Virus record (IMG/VR): IMGVR_UViG_3300038441_000307
Location: 1-40,095 of that record
DNA: 40,095 bases
Strand: one strand, 5' to 3'
DNA from: a virus
Shown in pieces: positions 2,620 to 33,938 of the stretch; within the stretch, counting starts at the first letter, position 1; every line of letters starts with the position of its first letter. A program made the position numbers and the translations under genes. The notes below the pieces were generated by a model, which was not told the origin of the DNA, did not search any database, and saw only the letters and a list, made by a program, of their open reading frames with translations.

Positions 2620-3474
2620 TCACTTGATGTTGATGAAAGGTAGCGCGCCGCCTGCATTGGTCGTCGGCAAGTGACCGTCCCACTTCTCCACGGCCGTCAT
2701 CTGCACGATTTCCGGGTTCGCGGTGATTGCGTTGGCCTTGACGCGGATGGCGTTTGCTTCGGCCTCAGACTGGATGCGTAGGGCTTCAGCGGCTCCGGTA
2801 GCCTGTGCCACCTGAATGTCTGCTTCTGCCTTTGCCTTCGCGACCTGATTCTGTGCCTGCTGCGCCTGCTGGGTCATCTGAATCTTGGCGTTGATCGAAT
2901 CCACCACGGCCTTCGGCAGTCGCAATTCCCCGACCCAGTAGATTTTCTCCACGTTGATGCCGATGGCTTCCACCTGCTTTGCCACGTCGGCCTGTACCTG
3001 CGCAATCAGCTTCGTCTTGCCTGCGCCGTACACCGTCTCTACAGGCATGCTGGATGCGTTCTTGACCAGCGAGTCACGGACCATGTTGCGCAGGTAGATA
3101 TCCGTGATTTCGTCCACGCCCTTGCGATACTTCTGGAAGATAAGCGGGGCCTTGTCAGGAACGATGTGGTAGCTGATACCCACGTCAGCGGTGACCGCCA
3201 AGCCTTCGACGGTCTGGAAACCCAGCTCTTCGTTGGTGCAGTCACCCTCCTGGCAGTCCTTGGCCCATGTGTAGTTCTGCGTGAAGGTCGGGAACAGGTA
3301 CATTTCTTCGTTGATTCCGACCCAGTGACGGCCCGGGCCTTTTTCTTCGATGTCTACGCCCTTGCTTCCGCCCAGCAGGTAAACCTTGATGCCGACGTTA
3401 CCGGCCGGAACCTTCGTGCACGCTGCCAGCGTCGCCACCAGCAGAAGTGCCACGATCAGTCGAATCTTGCGCAT
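2620..3474 (-). CDS. SPFH/Band-7 (prohibitin-like) lipoprotein (284 aa)
   Basis: Membrane-anchored scaffold protein of the stomatin/prohibitin/flotillin/HflK superfamily. The N-terminus MRKIRLIVALLLVATLAAC is a lipoprotein signal with lipobox LAAC and lipidated Cys19, so it is exported to the cell envelope. An SPFH domain covers about 20-190 (VPAGNVGIKVYLLGG, LAVTADVGISYHI, YLRNMVRDSL). An Ala/Gln/Glu-rich coiled coil follows at about 195-250 (QQAQQAQNQVAKAKAEADI). AGAGGAC precedes the ATG. It is an accessory gene in the early leftward operon. Phage SPFH proteins have been proposed to alter host membrane proteolysis or exclude other phages, but nothing here fixes the role. Confidence 0.88.
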   Translation of the reverse strand: MRKIRLIVALLLVATLAACTKVPAGNVGIKVYLLGGSKGVDIEEKGPGRHWVGINEEMYLFPTFTQNYTWAKDCQEGDCTNEELGFQTVEGLAVTADVGISYHIVPDKAPLIFQKYRKGVDEITDIYLRNMVRDSLVKNASSMPVETVYGAGKTKLIAQVQADVAKQVEAIGINVEKIYWVGELRLPKAVVDSINAKIQMTQQAQQAQNQVAKAKAEADIQVAQATGAAEALRIQSEAEANAIRVKANAITANPEIVQMTAVEKWDGHLPTTNAGGALPFINIK

Positions 3475-3713: not shown

Positions 3714-4271
3714 CTATATGGAACGAAAGTGATCCCGAAAATCGGCCATCGACCAAGCTCCCTTCCCAACATTGCAGTCTTCACACATGACCTGGAGATT
3801 GGAAATTGACAGGGAGAGGTGAGGTGCCTTGTAACGCGGGATAACGTGGTCAACATGAAGCTGAACCTGCGGAGGACGAGCGCCGCACGCTTGACAGTAC
3901 CGGCACAGGTCAAGCACCTGAATCCGTAGCTCTCGCCATTCGCGGGACTTATAGAATCCGTCATCCCGCTTGTAATCTGGATGCGCCTGTCCGATTGGCT
4001 GAAACCTGCGCTTAGGCGGTTTCGTGTACGGGCGATAATCCCACCTTTGGGACGATCTGGCTTCGCTGTTCCGCTTCTTGCGAGTCTTCAGGTAGAAAGC
4101 TCGGATGGTGTCGCCGACGTTCTGCGACCATGAGCCTGTCTGCTCCTTGATGGCTGCATGGATCTCCAATGCCGTTGCAATCTTGCGAAGCAGTAATTCA
4201 GAAACACAGAGCTTCCTCATTCTGTTGAACTGCTTCTTGCTCATACCTAAGAGCTGGTAATCCTCTTGCAT
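3714..4271 (-). CDS. HNH endonuclease (185 aa)
   Basis: DNA-cleaving HNH nuclease. The C-terminal domain shows FYKSREWRELR (107-117), zinc cysteines CRYCQAC (123-129) and CEDC (163-166), the catalytic HVDHVIP (139-145) with His142, Asn158 and GKG. This is the McrA-type HNH layout seen in free-standing homing nucleases and in some restriction enzymes. The N-terminal 100 residues are basic and not recognised. It lies directly downstream of a ~440-nt noncoding, hairpin-rich stretch, which suggests an intron- or RNA-associated mobile nuclease, but no split host gene is evident. ATG follows GGAAGG. Confidence 0.85.
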   Translation of the reverse strand: MQEDYQLLGMSKKQFNRMRKLCVSELLLRKIATALEIHAAIKEQTGSWSQNVGDTIRAFYLKTRKKRNSEARSSQRWDYRPYTKPPKRRFQPIGQAHPDYKRDDGFYKSREWRELRIQVLDLCRYCQACGARPPQVQLHVDHVIPRYKAPHLSLSISNLQVMCEDCNVGKGAWSMADFRDHFRSI

Positions 4272-4496
4272 CTCTAACCTTCCGGTAGGGTTTGGGTAGC
4301 CGAAAGCATCCCAACGCTTAGGTTGAGATACGTCCGGCAGGGAGCTTCCGTATAGGGCCCGTCTAACCGATCACTACCTTATCCGGCCATGCCTCGCAGT
4401 GACTCCAAGGCACCTCGCTGTCTCAGACCTATCCCACGGTAGCGAGCTTGCTGACCCCTGCGCCGTTGGTAACTGTGCACAGAGAACGGCAACCGG
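4272..4496 (-). other. Noncoding leader upstream of the HNH gene
   Basis: No coding frame is supported. On the minus strand several short helices can form: GCCGTT with AACGGC around 4464-4490, CTCGCT with AGCGAG around 4418-4448, and TTGGG with CCCAA around a TTTCG loop at about 4288-4312. ATCTC at about 4325 can pair with GAGAT spanning the HNH start codon, so the start may be sequestered. It could be a 5' leader or part of a larger RNA together with 4497-4660. Confidence 0.4.
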
Positions 4497-4660
4497 CCAA
4501 AGAAAAACCCCAAGAGGCTTAGAGGGGCGGGCCTTGGCGAGGCAGCTAACGCGGACGGGCTCTAGTCGTCTTTGCTTGCTACACCGCCCCTCTAAACTTC
4601 CTGGGGTTGTGCTTGCATTCTAGAGCCCAACAGCGTCCGGTGCCAACCGGTTGCGCGGAT
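4497..4660 (-). ncRNA. Candidate structured small RNA with interleaved stems
   Basis: A noncoding segment with two long inverted repeats. Arms 4506-4530 and 4584-4608 match over 25 nt except for an internal 6-nt block, and on the minus strand the 3' arm runs into a T-tract (4499-4507), as in an intrinsic terminator. A second perfect 9-bp repeat, CTAGAGCCC at 4620-4628 with GGGCTCTAG at 4557-4565, interleaves with the first, so the two can form a pseudoknot or mutually exclusive folds. A promoter-like element sits just upstream. The transcript would be about 160 nt. Function unknown; an attenuator or decoy RNA are options. Confidence 0.5.
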
Positions 4661-4661
4661 A

Positions 4662-4690
4662 GAAATACACCCGGGCTAGCCGGGTGTCAA
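4662..4690 (-). promoter_or_regulatory. Putative sigma70 promoter with palindromic spacer
   Basis: On the minus strand TTGACA (4685-4690) is followed after 17 bp by TATTTC (4662-4667). The spacer is a palindrome of 21 bp (4667-4687, half-site ACACCCGG around GCTAG), a plausible operator. The same hairpin followed by TATTTCTAT could instead be a weak terminator for the genes upstream. Confidence 0.45.
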
Positions 4691-5492: not shown

Positions 5493-5854
5493 CACTCGCC
5501 CTCCTGGTCTAGCGGGACGAGGGCGACCTTCCTATAGATGATTGGGCCTCCACGGCGCAACTCGTCTGGCTTGGATTCGATAAGGACGCCAACAAACTGA
5601 TTCCCATCAATGTCCTGCTGCCCCTGAAGTTCGCCGACCTCGACACACTCCCCGGTAGTAGCATCCCTCAGCCGGCGCTGGTCGGATAGGGCGATTAGGA
5701 GTTCATTTGCATGGGCTGACATAAACTCGGAGCAGGCCGTCTCATAGACATGCCACGCACGCGCATTCCTATCAATATCCTCCATCCGTTGGGGAAGACT
5801 CCGGCATGCCTCACGAGCTTCCAGCACGCGGACTAGGTCTTGTTCGATGGTCAT
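5492..5854 (-). CDS. Hypothetical protein (120 aa)
   Basis: Begins MTIEQDLVRVLEAREACRSL. A helical N-terminal half is followed by a beta-rich end (QFVGVLIESKPDELRRGGPIIY). The start at 5854 overlaps the upstream stop as ATGA, which decides against the longer in-frame version. Function unknown. Confidence 0.6.
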   Translation of the reverse strand: MTIEQDLVRVLEAREACRSLPQRMEDIDRNARAWHVYETACSEFMSAHANELLIALSDQRRLRDATTGECVEVGELQGQQDIDGNQFVGVLIESKPDELRRGGPIIYRKVALVPLDQEGE

Positions 5855-6186
5855 ACGCACCTCACGAAATTGCGCTTCGGACTGTAGTTGCTGCTGCGTG
5901 ACGGGGTAAAGTGCTGCGTCTTCCGAATCAGTTTTTCCTTCTGCGCCCGCTGAGTCAGCGCACCGAATGCCCTCAGTTCGTCCGGCATCTTCGCGCCCTT
6001 GGATGCAGCCCACAGGCGGAAGTCCTCGATTATGAACTCGTGATCCCATCCCCACTTTCGGCGAAGGTGACGCAGGTACAGGCGCAGCCAGTGCATCATT
6101 TCCTCTTGCCATTCGGGGCCCGCGTGATCGGCGGACGACTGGATGCCCCGCTCTGTCTTTGCGCGGGCTTGGGTCTTAGCGGTCAT
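5851..6186 (-). CDS. Conserved phage protein, possible winged-helix (111 aa)
   Basis: Begins MTAKTQARAKTERGIQSSAD. The core FIIEDFRLWAASKGAKMPDE followed by RAFGALTQRAQKEKLI is a pattern shared by many small phage proteins encoded near recombination or NinX-type genes, and looks like a winged helix. The Ser/Arg-rich tail is not conserved. Role unknown. Confidence 0.6.
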   Translation of the reverse strand: MTAKTQARAKTERGIQSSADHAGPEWQEEMMHWLRLYLRHLRRKWGWDHEFIIEDFRLWAASKGAKMPDELRAFGALTQRAQKEKLIRKTQHFTPSRSSNYSPKRNFVRCV

Positions 6187-10772: not shown

Positions 10773-11022
10773 GATGAAGGTGACGAAGGAAGCGTTGCGC
10801 GCCGCGATGAACGCCGAGTTCTGCGGCGTCCGGACGAGTGACGCGCTGATGTTCGGCACCGACTATGACACCGAAGTTTTGGAGGCCGCGCTACAGGCAG
10901 CACTGGCCGCGATGCTGGAGCCGGTCATGTGGAAGCACGAAGGTTGCTCATGGGTCCCGGTGAATGAATGCCTGATCGCAACTCGCGGTCGTATCGAATA
11001 CCTCTACAGGATCAAACCATGA
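10762..11022 (+). CDS. Hypothetical protein (86 aa)
   Basis: Begins MAAEMKVTKEALRAAMNAEF. An N-terminal helix and an Ala-rich segment (VLEAALQAALAAMLEP) are the only features. Its stop overlaps the next start (ATGA). Typical of mosaic early phage proteins; function unknown. Confidence 0.6.
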   Translation: MAAEMKVTKEALRAAMNAEFCGVRTSDALMFGTDYDTEVLEAALQAALAAMLEPVMWKHEGCSWVPVNECLIATRGRIEYLYRIKP

Positions 11023-12413
11023 ACGCCCCCACCAAGAATGAGAGCCTGCCGGAGTTGCTGACACGCGCCCTGCCTTTCCTGCGCGATGAGGCAGCGAAGT
11101 ACACGGACGACGGCAATAATGAGCCGCTGGAGCTTGCGCGCACTATCGAAGCGGAACTGGCTGGTCGCCGCAACAGGGATGCACGCGAACCCGGCGGCAT
11201 GCAGTGCGAGAAGTGCGGAAGCGTCTTCATCGGCGCAGAATGGCATGTGCTTTGCGGCATGTGCATAGATCATGGTGTAGCGCAGCCGGACGGGTCCGGC
11301 CTCCGTGACGGGGACAACATGCCCGCTAGCATGCCCGAAACGTCGCCACTGCCGCAGGTAACCAATCCTGCCTACACCGCCCTCACCCGCGAAGCGCCCA
11401 CGGAGGGGGTGGGGGAACCCGTCAGGTGCCCTTGGGACCATGGCTCACCATGCCTAGAGCCGCGCCCCGTCGGTATGGTGTATCGCGGCGTTCCCGCGCC
11501 TCGCGCTTTCGGGTATCTGGACAAGACTGGCGTGGAATGGGCGGCGTTCGATACGGGGCAGATGGAAGCTTATGCGCGCGTCTCGTACAGCGATGGTTGG
11601 GAAGCTGGCTATGCCGCAGCTTCTGCGCTGGATCCTAAAATACTGTCTCAGTGGGAAGACGTACAGCGCGACATGCGCGCGTATGGGTTTTCCATCGCCA
11701 GAAACGGTGAGCGCGTCGATCCGTCAGAAGTAATCGCCACCCCGCCCGCCCCGCAGCGCCAACCAGACAGTGACCCGCTGTGTGTACTGGGATTGGAGAC
11801 GTGCAGATTCCCCAAGTGCGAATGCAAGGACGATCCGCAGCGACTGGCGCAGGGAGATGCAGCATCGCGTATCCGTGGCCTAATCGCCGAGATTGACCCG
11901 AAGGCCAAGCCTGCGACCGGAACGATGAAGCTGGTGGCCGATGAACTGCGGGCTATCAGTGCACTCACCACCCAGCCGCCCCACCATGACCGGGGGGAGG
12001 ATGGACTCCCTGATTTGCCGAAGCCGACGTTCATCACCGATGACGACGACCTTTTCACGAAACGGCAGATGCGCGAGTACGCCATCGCCGCCCTGACCGA
12101 AGCCAAGCAGCAGGGGCCGGGGGAGGCCTGGGCGGCAGACGAGAGGCCTGGCGACAACCACAACTGGGGCGATTTCTCGCGCACCGAGTTGATCGAACTG
12201 GTAGAGGCTCTTTCCAGCGACGCCAAGGTGAAGGCCGTCCGCAAGTGGCCGTTCGTGGAGACGCCGGGCGCGCTCGCAAACCGCGTGGACATGGCGACAC
12301 GTCAATTCCCTCTGGTCGGCGCACTGCGCAACGTCTTCATCGAGAACCCGCCGACGTTCCTTGTGCCTGACGCACCCCAAGTCGAAGCCAAGCGGCAGAC
12401 GGGAGAGGGGTGA
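11019..12413 (+). CDS. Large mosaic early protein (464 aa)
   Basis: Begins MNAPTKNESLPELLTRALPF. Appears built from short modules: an N-terminal helix, a zinc-ribbon-like CEKCGSVFIG...CGMC at about 62-80, a DTGQMEAYARVSYSDGWEAG segment near 200, a Cys cluster CVLGLETCRFPKCECKD near 265, helical AASRIRGLIAEIDP, and a C-terminal half with DDDLFTKRQMREYAIAALTE. These modules recur in Ead/Ea22-type variable early proteins. No catalytic motif was found. Start fixed by the ATGA overlap. Largest protein of the rightward arm. Confidence 0.65.
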   Translation: MNAPTKNESLPELLTRALPFLRDEAAKYTDDGNNEPLELARTIEAELAGRRNRDAREPGGMQCEKCGSVFIGAEWHVLCGMCIDHGVAQPDGSGLRDGDNMPASMPETSPLPQVTNPAYTALTREAPTEGVGEPVRCPWDHGSPCLEPRPVGMVYRGVPAPRAFGYLDKTGVEWAAFDTGQMEAYARVSYSDGWEAGYAAASALDPKILSQWEDVQRDMRAYGFSIARNGERVDPSEVIATPPAPQRQPDSDPLCVLGLETCRFPKCECKDDPQRLAQGDAASRIRGLIAEIDPKAKPATGTMKLVADELRAISALTTQPPHHDRGEDGLPDLPKPTFITDDDDLFTKRQMREYAIAALTEAKQQGPGEAWAADERPGDNHNWGDFSRTELIELVEALSSDAKVKAVRKWPFVETPGALANRVDMATRQFPLVGALRNVFIENPPTFLVPDAPQVEAKRQTGEG

Positions 12414-13148: not shown

Positions 13149-13759
13149 CCACACAGCCGAGCGACTGGGCGGTTGCCAGGGCTTTCCGCTACTACGTGGA
13201 CAGCCCAGCCAACTGGAATCTGCACACGGCAGAGGACTTCATCACAACTGTTGTCCGGTTCGCTAATGAGCTAGAAGCGAACGCTCATGCGCCATCTTGG
13301 CCCGGCGACATCGAGGTCGCGACTCTGATCCAAGACAACACGGGTTGCGGCGATAGCGATTCGGTTCGCGTCGCATGGATGATCCGCGAAGCCATGGACC
13401 GCGCCCGCGAACTGGACGCCAGCGGGGGTGGCTCATCCATCGAGTCTGCGGCGCTTGAAGTCATCCGTGCGCACCTGGCCGGAGAACTGGACGACGGCAT
13501 GATCCTAAGACTTTCCAGCGCACTAGCCACCCCACGGGCTGCGGAGGCGGGGGACGATACCTACGACCTAGCCGACCTGCACGACAGCCTGCGCATTGTT
13601 TACGAGGCTGTCCCAACTCTGCCGATCACCGCCGAGACCATGGACGCAGCCACCGACGCTCTCCACGAGTTCTGCTTGCTGATCGGCATTCACAAGATCG
13701 AGACCGGGCCTTACGACAAGGCCATGGGCGCGGCGGGTGCGGGTCATCCAACAACCTGA
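13145..13759 (+). CDS. Hypothetical protein, last gene of the rightward arm (204 aa)
   Basis: GTG start overlapping the upstream TGA; begins (M)TTQPSDWAVARAFRYYVD. The first 100 residues (TAEDFITTVVRFANELEANA) look like a helical domain, followed by DLADLHDSLRIVYEAVP. Its 3' end overlaps the 3' end of the tail-fibre gene on the other strand by 16 bases, so the two transcription units converge with no gap. Confidence 0.6.
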   Translation: MTTQPSDWAVARAFRYYVDSPANWNLHTAEDFITTVVRFANELEANAHAPSWPGDIEVATLIQDNTGCGDSDSVRVAWMIREAMDRARELDASGGGSSIESAALEVIRAHLAGELDDGMILRLSSALATPRAAEAGDDTYDLADLHDSLRIVYEAVPTLPITAETMDAATDALHEFCLLIGIHKIETGPYDKAMGAAGAGHPTT

Positions 13760-15252
13760 GCGCAGGAGTAGACGTCAACTACCCACTTCAGGCTATGGGC
13801 TGCCTCACCTGTTGCTGTAAACCGAACCGCTCCGTTTGTGGTGTCAGCGGTGACGGCGATTGTCCACGTAGCTGCGCCAGCATCTGCGCCGATGCTGGTA
13901 ACCGTCGGAGTTCCAAGCAGCGCAGTGGATGCAGCATTCGCCCCTCGCTTGACTGCTCCCGTCACATCCCATGCCGCAGAGTCTCCAGTCGCCGCTTCAC
14001 GCACTGTCACAATGGCCTTGAAGGCGTAGAGGCTGTTGTTCGGGAGAACAAGCTGGTTTGTCGCCCCTGCGGCTGCGCCATCGTTGGTGACCGCTGCCGG
14101 GGTTGCATTGGTGGTGGCAACGCGCGCAACTGCACACATGCTCTGAGCGTCGCCCGTACTTGCGAACCTGCCGGATGCACGAATACCTACGCCATAAATG
14201 GAGCGGGCGATTGCATAATAGCCGCCAGCCGACCACGAATAGATGCCGTTAGCGAAGTTGAACTGACCTCCACCGACATGGGCATGTGTCGCTGTAGCCT
14301 CATTACCCTGCCCACCTCCAACGCTCGCATGTGCCGCGCTTGACGTATTGGACTGTCCGCCTGATACCGACGTGTGCGTGGCCGATGCCGTATTGCTCTG
14401 GCCGCCACTGATGCAACCTTGTGCGCCCGTAATTGAGTTGGAGGTTCCGCCTCCAACCGCCGCGCCGGTACTATTTGCGCTGTTGGTTGATCCGCCAGCC
14501 ACCGTTCCGCTCTGCCCGGTTGCAATATTGTCGTTGCCACCACTTATCGTTGAGTATTGCCCGGAGGCAACCCGAGAGGCCAAGCTGCGGACACGCTGCC
14601 AATCCGTAGCATCAGAGCCACGCTTGTTGCCGCCAGCAGAAGTGTTGTCGGCAATATCAGCCGTCAATGCGCCTATGCCCTTTGGCAAAATTGCCGCATC
14701 CACATCGGTAGCGGCATTGGTTGCAGTGAACGAAACTACCGGAACTGTTCCATTGGGGGCAGACGTATTAACCGCCTCTGTCCAATTTGTCAGCCCTCCG
14801 CCACCGCCCGCTTGCCAAGCCGGCGCGCCAGAGACAAGCGTCAACACCCATCCATCAGTAGCGGCAGCAAGTCGCGTTGGTGCGCCAGCGACGCCGCCAT
14901 AGATCATGTCCCCGGCTGTAGTCATGGGGTTGGTCATTCCGCCGCCAGAGCCATTGGCGGCCGCTGTAATTCTGCCCTGAGCGTCAACGGTAATGTCGGC
15001 GTTCGTGTAACTTCCAGGGGTTACTGCCGTGTCTTCGATGGAGACAACAGGGTTTGCAGGATCGGTGCTATCAACATCAATCCCGGTTCCGGCTACGATG
15101 GTTTCGACAACGCCAGTTCCGGAGGCAAGATCCGCAATGTCCTGCGTGGTGGCGTCAACCATCGTGCCGTCCTGAACGATGGACAGGGTTTCCGTCCCAT
15201 CTAGCGGAGTAGTGGCTGGGTCGAAATCTACGCCGTATTGTTTTGTAGGCAT
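13744..15252 (-). CDS. Tail fibre with YadA-like repeats (502 aa)
   Basis: Receptor-binding or distal tail-fibre protein. The N-terminal region (to about 110) has the phage-fibre pattern TPGSYTNADITVDAQGRITA. Residues about 231-350 form at least seven 15-residue repeats of the form [V/I]xGGxxNxxS, as in left-handed beta-roll head domains of YadA-like trimeric adhesins. The C-terminal ~130 residues form a separate domain (VTNDGAAAGATNQLVLPNNS) that may be the receptor-binding tip. It is the last gene of the leftward late operon. Trimeric fibre architecture is inferred. Confidence 0.8.
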   Translation of the reverse strand: MPTKQYGVDFDPATTPLDGTETLSIVQDGTMVDATTQDIADLASGTGVVETIVAGTGIDVDSTDPANPVVSIEDTAVTPGSYTNADITVDAQGRITAAANGSGGGMTNPMTTAGDMIYGGVAGAPTRLAAATDGWVLTLVSGAPAWQAGGGGGLTNWTEAVNTSAPNGTVPVVSFTATNAATDVDAAILPKGIGALTADIADNTSAGGNKRGSDATDWQRVRSLASRVASGQYSTISGGNDNIATGQSGTVAGGSTNSANSTGAAVGGGTSNSITGAQGCISGGQSNTASATHTSVSGGQSNTSSAAHASVGGGQGNEATATHAHVGGGQFNFANGIYSWSAGGYYAIARSIYGVGIRASGRFASTGDAQSMCAVARVATTNATPAAVTNDGAAAGATNQLVLPNNSLYAFKAIVTVREAATGDSAAWDVTGAVKRGANAASTALLGTPTVTSIGADAGAATWTIAVTADTTNGAVRFTATGEAAHSLKWVVDVYSCAQVVG

Positions 15253-33453: not shown

Positions 33454-33938
33454 CACTTAGCCCTCAGGGCGTTATAGCTAGCGATGCACTGGTTGCGTTC
33501 GTCGGCGATTGCGTCGGCTTCGTCGGCGAAACGAACAAGAAATTCCGCATCCTCGATCCGAAGTCCGGATTCTTCGGGGACAGGTTTGGCGGCAGCTCCG
33601 GAGGCCTTGGCGGCGGGACAGGTGAACCGGTCGCGCAGGCGGACAGTGCCGCTACGCAAATCAGCAATAGTGCGCTCAGTCTCTTGTTCACGCTCAGCCC
33701 TCTTTAGTTCTGCGGCGTAGGCTAGATCCCATACAGCCTTGTTCCATGCTTGCTCTGTCGCTAGACGGACCTTCTCGGCTTCGGCTACCGACTCATCCCA
33801 CTTGGCCTGCACGTCGGCCTGTCCGGCATTGTAGCGAGTATGGCCGTAGTACAGACCAGCCGCCACAAGGATAAAAAGGACGTAGGCCCATCCCGGGATA
33901 CGCCTTAAAGCCGCGCCTATGGCTGCGAGCGAAAGCAT
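33453..33938 (-). CDS. Rz: i-spanin Rz-like (161 aa)
   Basis: Inner-membrane spanin that bridges the envelope and fuses the membranes during lysis. One N-terminal transmembrane segment (about 17-32, WAYVLFILVAAGLYYG) is followed by a periplasmic coiled coil (VAEAEKVRLATEQAWNKAVW, then LKRAEREQETERTIADLRSG). The C-terminus would bind the embedded Rz1. It follows the amidase and membrane genes of the lysis cassette. Confidence 0.85.
   Translation of the reverse strand: MLSLAAIGAALRRIPGWAYVLFILVAAGLYYGHTRYNAGQADVQAKWDESVAEAEKVRLATEQAWNKAVWDLAYAAELKRAEREQETERTIADLRSGTVRLRDRFTCPAAKASGAAAKPVPEESGLRIEDAEFLVRFADEADAIADERNQCIASYNALRAK
33464..33691 (-). CDS. Rz1: o-spanin Rz1-like lipoprotein, embedded in Rz (75 aa)
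   Basis: Outer-membrane spanin partner. It lies wholly inside the Rz gene in another frame, the classic nested arrangement. Begins MNKRLSALLLICVAALSAC, with lipobox LSAC and lipidated Cys19, followed by a Pro-rich stretch SPVPPPRPPELPPNLSP typical of Rz1. The C-terminal third is unusually long. Confidence 0.85.
   Translation of the reverse strand: MNKRLSALLLICVAALSACATGSPVPPPRPPELPPNLSPKNPDFGSRMRNFLFVSPTKPTQSPTNATSASLAITP

Follow-up and report, generated by a model that had tools for sequence, protein, structure and literature searches.

By comparing related sequences, we found that the interleaved inverted repeats in the window (the whole stretch analysed, a virus record of 40,095 bases) mark a phage RNA gene that is real and conserved and folds into a pseudoknot. 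The RNA probably has the sense of the minus strand and is probably about 370 nt long, running from about 4658 to about 4290, with the repeats as its 5′ domain. Our preferred reading, to which we give a probability of roughly 0.6, is a modular noncoding RNA of phages that has several domains, is encoded on the minus strand and transcribed independently, and would act in trans; a trans-acting RNA appears the most likely role. In the window, the minus strand carries portal, scaffold, major head and terminase genes and the plus strand a gene for a Bet-like annealing protein; the repeats are flanked by small open frames on one side and by an HNH endonuclease gene on the other. A tRNA/tmRNA search of the window returned a tRNA-Gln alone, unrelated to the repeats. 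The features are listed here in the order of the minus-sense RNA; helix boundaries are duplex predictions.

4685-4690, minus strand: perfect –35-like TTGACA of the predicted promoter (score 9.4 in the window, 0 of 300 shuffles)
4645-4657, minus strand: 5′ strand of helix P0, CGCGCAACCGGTT, near the predicted transcription start
4641-4644, minus strand: 5′ strand of helix P1, GGCA, which pairs with 4541-4544 and stacks on Pb
4620-4628, minus strand: 5′ strand of the hypervariable helix Pb, RNA GGGCUCUAG (9 of 9 pairs with changes on both sides)
4584-4608, minus strand: 5′ strand of helix Pa, RNA AACCCCAGGAAGUUUAGAGGGGCGG (Pa, –48 kcal/mol)
4557-4565, minus strand: 3′ strand of Pb, RNA CUAGAGCCC, from pairing tests across relatives
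4531-4544, minus strand: 3′ strand of P1 and joining segment, RNA UGCCUCGCCAAGGC, the most strongly conserved part (because a piece of it served as a search key, some of this invariance is built in; BLAST picked up phage Kintu without the key)
4506-4530, minus strand: 3′ strand of Pa, RNA CCGCCCCUCUAAGCCUCUUGGGGUU, from alignment, duplex energy and a self/non-self test
4503-4507, minus strand: U tract immediately after Pa, in every true member found
4486-4498, minus strand: 3′ strand of P0, GGCCGGTTGCCGT, from duplex prediction and a self/non-self test
4402-4487, minus strand: stretch of the 3′ domain that resembles RF02932 (25.0 bits; in this record, E=1.8e-4)
4297-4340, minus strand: 3′ hairpin ...GCCGGACG...GGAUGCUUUCGGC, with conserved GGATGCTTTCGGCT and a paired 5′ arm in 5 of 5 B-type sequences
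3714-4271, minus strand: HNH endonuclease gene (Pfam HNH, E=1.5e-10), 185 aa, with no RuvC part found

The longer arm pair, 4506-4530 (AACCCCAAGAGGCTTAGAGGGGCGG) with 4584-4608 (CCGCCCCTCTAAACTTCCTGGGGTT), has Watson-Crick pairs at 21 of 25 positions; its four mismatches all fall in a single 6-nt block, and several of them become G-U pairs on the minus strand. The shorter pair, 4557-4565 (GGGCTCTAG) with 4620-4628 (CTAGAGCCC), is perfect. The four arms follow one another in the order a, b, a′, b′, are disjoint and have no base in common, and a repeat search lengthens the pairs to 31 nt (84%) and 25 nt (76%). An initial annotation, made without tools from this single sequence, had placed both pairs, with the 6-nt break and the interleaving, and had seen the long pair end in a T tract on the minus strand; both pairs are exactly at the annotated positions, and on the minus strand the T tract comes directly after arm a (4507-4503). 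In the minus-sense RNA the elements run P0, P1, Pb, Pa, Pb′, P1′, Pa′, U tract, P0′, and in the window the two strands of Pa are 53 nt apart. We dropped another candidate pairing, 4554-4564 with 4353-4363, because, by eye, it is not preserved among relatives.

The same annotation had judged such pairing unlikely to arise by chance, and this was borne out. The folding energy of the region is 3.4 SD better than that of dinucleotide shuffles on either strand, with 0 of 200 shuffles as good on the plus strand and 1 of 200 on the minus strand, and arm a, searched against its own 40-kb record, recovers its partner at E=3.6e-4. Since both strands fold about 3.4 SD better than shuffles, the window alone settles neither the strand nor the certainty of the structure; the relatives settled the matter, and a chance or artefactual origin of the repeats is excluded by the shuffles, the own-record E value, and the permutations and alignment described below.

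By blastn we found one relative, Xanthomonas phage Kintu (PP313117.1), in which the matched region carries no annotated feature. DNA patterns built from the shared core then identified 22 IMG/VR contigs carrying the element. The total is 24 copies including the window and Kintu, about 20 of them distinct (23 copies, about 19 distinct, besides the window). We assigned true and chance loci, subfamilies and 3′-domain types by inspection, the types by eye, as follows.

Type A: Kintu, L005, L006, L018
Type B: the window, L008
Type C: L014, L015
Type D: L035-L037, L039, L042, L045, L047, L049, L053, L055
Type E: L034, L038, L044, L048, L050, L056

Other loci were judged by inspection to be pattern coincidences (L007, L009-L013, L016, L017, L019-L033, L040, L041, L043, L046, L051, L052, L054, L057 and L104-L109). 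Because the pattern that yielded the D and E members included CTCGCCAAGGC and the U tract, the invariance of both in these types is in part built in; a pattern search without the U-tract requirement returned the D and A members once more, and each of them has a U tract. A strict core pattern occurs once per record in 10 phage records and gave a single match, resembling coding sequence, in 399 genomes of the order of bacterial genome G346, so the pseudoknot domain looks phage-borne. A pattern scan of genomes gave four matches, none of them similar to this RNA by inspection, and a plasmid search found no copy. One further locus, L103 (MW202484.1), has a similar topology without the CGCCAAGG core; it is not counted as a member because its Pb duplex is not significant (77 of 1000 shuffles).

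Across the family, the pairing of both stems is maintained by compensatory change. A Pb helix of its own, with 6-15 contiguous pairs, is present in every one of the 20 homologs tested. When we scored all 5′ against all 3′ Pb segments, self pairs had a mean of 23.0 and non-self pairs a mean of 13.5, and 0 of 20,000 permutations reached the self mean. For Pa, the self energy was –43.1 kcal/mol as compared to –25.8 kcal/mol for non-self (15 relatives; 0 of 20,000 permutations). In a six-sequence alignment (A4), 14 of 37 pairs have changes on both sides, as compared to 5.9 in shuffles, and this includes all 9 Pb pairs; because some of the sequences are kin (Kintu and L018 have the same Pb), the cells of this alignment are not independent events. 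Covariation in this alignment was 0.299, as compared to 0.146 after shuffling and 0.02-0.14 with slid partners; sliding the partners by 1-3 columns abolishes the signal. The D and E types add further Pb alleles. The closing helix P0 (4657-4645 with 4498-4486, –18.7 kcal/mol) gave a weaker signal than Pa in the self/non-self test (7 of 20,000 permutations); the signal comes from the window, L008 and the C and D types, and P0 is convincing in these only.

P1 and Pb together make up an almost unbroken helix, predicted at 17-32 pairs and containing small loops; in the majority of A and D relatives, P1 has 7 bp (GGCAGUC/GACUGCC). Pa has 23-29 predicted pairs. The comparisons indicate that Pa and Pb, extended by P1, are one fold, an unusually large extended H-type pseudoknot, in which the arms come in the order a, b, a′, b′ and both stems are compensated. 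The initial annotation had proposed either a pseudoknot or a switch, as in attenuators. The first of these stands and the second does not: each stem is preserved by compensatory change in the same molecules, which argues for one fold over a two-state attenuator, and because the four arms have no common bases the stems are not alternatives, so the mutually exclusive stems with common bases expected of a switch are absent. The annotation had also named conservation of paired bases in related phages as a check, and one arm changing alone as a refutation; we found both stems compensated, and a lone change of one arm was looked for and not seen, with 20 of 20 homologs having their own Pb pair. Reading one sequence without tools was enough to pick out a real pseudoknot.

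To assign the strand, we compared stem stability in the two senses. Summed over 19 homologs, Pa has –820.7 kcal/mol in the minus sense and –640.9 kcal/mol in the complement, and P1-Pb has –637.1 and –578.6 kcal/mol, respectively; in the window alone, P1-Pb is slightly opposite (–35.3 minus sense vs –38.5 kcal/mol on the other strand). The family-wide difference arises from G-U pairs. Upstream lies a sigma70-like predicted promoter, which in the window has a perfect –35 and a weak –10 (TGTATT at 4669-4664 or TTTCTA at 4665-4660). The distance from the end of the best –10 to a conserved TGGC is 11-15 nt in 17 of 20 homologs; in the window it is 18 nt, and P0 is longer in the window. The near-fixed upstream promoter and the greater family-wide stability of the minus-sense stems together favor the minus strand. 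They also bear on whether the repeats could act as DNA, as a replication origin or a packaging or protein-binding site. Such sites typically contain long inverted repeats, and the two strands of the window taken alone fold about equally well; however, stems that are markedly better on one strand through G-U pairs, near-fixed promoter spacing and an interleaving that is unexpected for DNA cruciforms make a DNA-level element very improbable.

The RNA probably continues past the U tract, because P0 pairs beyond the tract and a conserved region comes next. The tract could be a terminator, with the RNA ending at the 5′ domain. The initial annotation had proposed a transcript of about 160 nt; this holds as the size of the 5′ domain, but the whole RNA is predicted to be probably about 370 nt. 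Helix P0, which extends outside the annotated span, and conserved RNA reaching about 4290 were both absent from that annotation.

Downstream of the pseudoknot, we found two main types of 3′ domain across the family, one of them RF02932-like; the second kind, identified by inspection, is in the C and E types. The gathering cut-off of RF02932 (Betaproteobacteria-1) is 49.4 bits and is passed by L035, L036, L037, L045 and L049, and in the D types RF02932 is found at 82-99 bits immediately 3′ of the pseudoknot domain. The window falls below the cut-off at 25.0 bits, and its 3′ domain is, from this score, at most a divergent relative. RF02932 has a three-hairpin layout with conserved CUGUGGGA...CUGA where the window has CCGUGGGAUAGGUCUGAGACAG, and the B-type alignment has several compensated pairs; aligned with L008, L060, L061 and L062, the window shows common sequence and compensated pairs up to the 3′ hairpin near 4297. 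The 5′ domain matched no Rfam family at gathering or loose thresholds, and other sub-cut-off Rfam matches (CRISPR-repeat, miRNA, Trp-leader, PTE) were weak and taken as chance. The 5′ domain is thus new and partly attached to the known orphan family RF02932, whose model covers 120 nt only and lacks the 5′ pseudoknot domain. RF02932 thereby gains a larger context and a phage home, and phages whose gene content differs considerably are seen to carry a common, well-supported structured RNA domain that Rfam 15 does not list. In four bacterial genomes, RF02932 occurs without the pseudoknot domain. These copies (L086-L091, in G346, G318, G663 and G279) number up to three per genome, and several are, by reading, near large genes resembling ATPases or nucleases of defence or mobile islands. 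On the reverse strand of L039, in its last ~250 nt, a zinc-finger, endonuclease-like open frame comes right after the U tract, replacing the 3′ domain. In MW202484.1, an annotated hypothetical CDS at 33533-33892 (2887-3246 of L103) covers a stretch with 81% identity to the E-type 3′ RNA domain and is, by this match, probably a mis-annotated RNA. We found no literature on the pseudoknot RNA or on the function of RF02932.

The element behaves as a module. E-type copies have Pa 93-100% and core 86-100% identical with strongly different flanks; between L034 and L044, for example, Pa is 96% and the core 94% identical, as compared to 57% in the upstream and 19% in the downstream flank. In L060 and L092, the 5′ RNA domain differs from the window pseudoknot, a natural domain swap; L092 (IMGVR_UViG_3300028592_000099, 5660-6060) is a relative of the window phage in which the upstream flank and the RF02932-like domain are kept. 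The RNA is found once per phage, in differing gene neighbourhoods that include HNH, capsid-region, NinB/RusA-like and DnaD-like genes (labels besides HNH are from sequence reading). Trans action is inferred because the gene neighbours vary while the structure is constant, although varying neighbours would equally be expected of a cis-acting element of general use, for instance an antiterminator. In the preferred reading, the RNA would be transcribed from the promoter just upstream, would fold co-transcriptionally and would act in trans, either bare or in an RNP.

Conditional terminators and antiterminators such as the put sites of phage HK022 and the EAR element of Bacillus are compact structured RNAs that come soon after a promoter, and EAR has a pseudoknot. 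The element resembles them in these respects and could be a cis-acting leader of the downstream transcript, with Pa and the U tract as a conditional terminator/antiterminator for the following gene. The promoter lies directly upstream, a GC-rich stem is followed by a U tract in all members, and a same-strand HNH gene follows the RNA in the window and in Kintu. In contrast to what a leader predicts, the genes downstream vary, the Pa loop is 53 nt in the window where terminator loops are normally short, P0 pairs sequence past the U tract, a structured 3′ domain comes next, and stems without common bases provide no built-in alternative; the element also has no Rfam match to EAR, much longer stems and a second structured domain 3′. 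We consider a cis-acting leader rather unlikely, and a trans-acting RNA remains the preferred reading.

Downstream of the RNA, similar HNH genes are found in the window, Kintu, L018, L005 and also L060, and the window and Kintu proteins at the equivalent position are 62% identical over 130 aa. In having structured RNA ahead of an HNH-domain gene, the element recalls HEARO, the omega RNA of IsrB and IscB. A mobile element like these, or like a self-splicing intron, with the RNA either guiding the HNH protein or being moved by it, would account for finding the same HNH family behind this RNA (window, Kintu, L018 and L005) and, in L060 and L092, behind RF02932-type RNA without the pseudoknot. However, many copies have no adjoining HNH gene, the RNA is intergenic with its own predicted promoter, and the HNH protein is small and stand-alone (185 aa, no RuvC part found), not an IsrB or IscB. 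Group I and group II intron models of Rfam did not match the element in the window, Kintu or the relatives, and no Rfam HEARO match was found for it; a plastid group II match in L044 was weak, sub-threshold and elsewhere in the contig. In L035, an HNH-like gene lies in a 519-bp insertion (2944-3462) that replaces 19 bp of L036; it lies downstream of RNAs that are nearly identical in the two contigs, about 500 nt away and within a neighbouring gene, an apparent homing event with L036 as the empty site. A mobile RNA-HNH element thus seems distinctly unlikely. The HNH gene is a frequent neighbour and no obligatory partner, and we infer that these are free-standing homing-type genes favouring the neighbourhood of the RNA. 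A direct search of viral contigs for HNH relatives found none. The gene next after HNH in the window (2620-3474, minus strand) encodes a Band_7/SPFH protein (Pfam E=7.2e-26); L018 apparently has the same order, and the DNA match of L092 lies just past the Band_7/SPFH gene. Elsewhere in the window, two open frames of ~480-500 aa (10968-12413, plus strand, and 13744-15252, minus strand) are without a PHROG match.

Among known large RNAs, GOLLD and ROOL are also phage- or prophage-borne structured RNAs with pseudoknots and of unknown function (PMC12286853). These are 600-800+ nt as compared to about 370 nt, are unrelated in sequence and layout, and their family models did not match the element.

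The least expected feature of the element is the replacement of Pb. Between the D types L035 and L049, the upstream region, P1 and the core are 100% identical, and the two Pb segments are 29% and 39% identical; between L034 and L048, Pa and the core are identical and the Pb 5′ segments are 45% identical. Pairing is retained in every Pb variant. It is unusual for nearly a whole helix to be replaced between copies that are almost the same elsewhere while its pairing is kept. Because the Pb sequence is free and its pairing fixed, the helix may be read for shape, or its sequence may be under diversifying pressure; the variability would then reflect either selection for diversity or rapid drift in a helix of which only the shape is read. 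Diversification might, for example, serve to avoid cross-recognition between related phages. When Pb arms were compared with their own phage genome as candidate guides, there was no systematic longer-than-chance match. We tentatively suggest, as a possibility held with well under even confidence, an undescribed phage RNA class in which the diversifying, self-complementary Pb would be an identity or evasion tag and the 3′ domains would be interchangeable, RF02932 being one of them. L014 and L037, which belong to different subfamilies, have a common nine-base Pb allele, CATTGAGAG, which may reflect allele exchange or chance.
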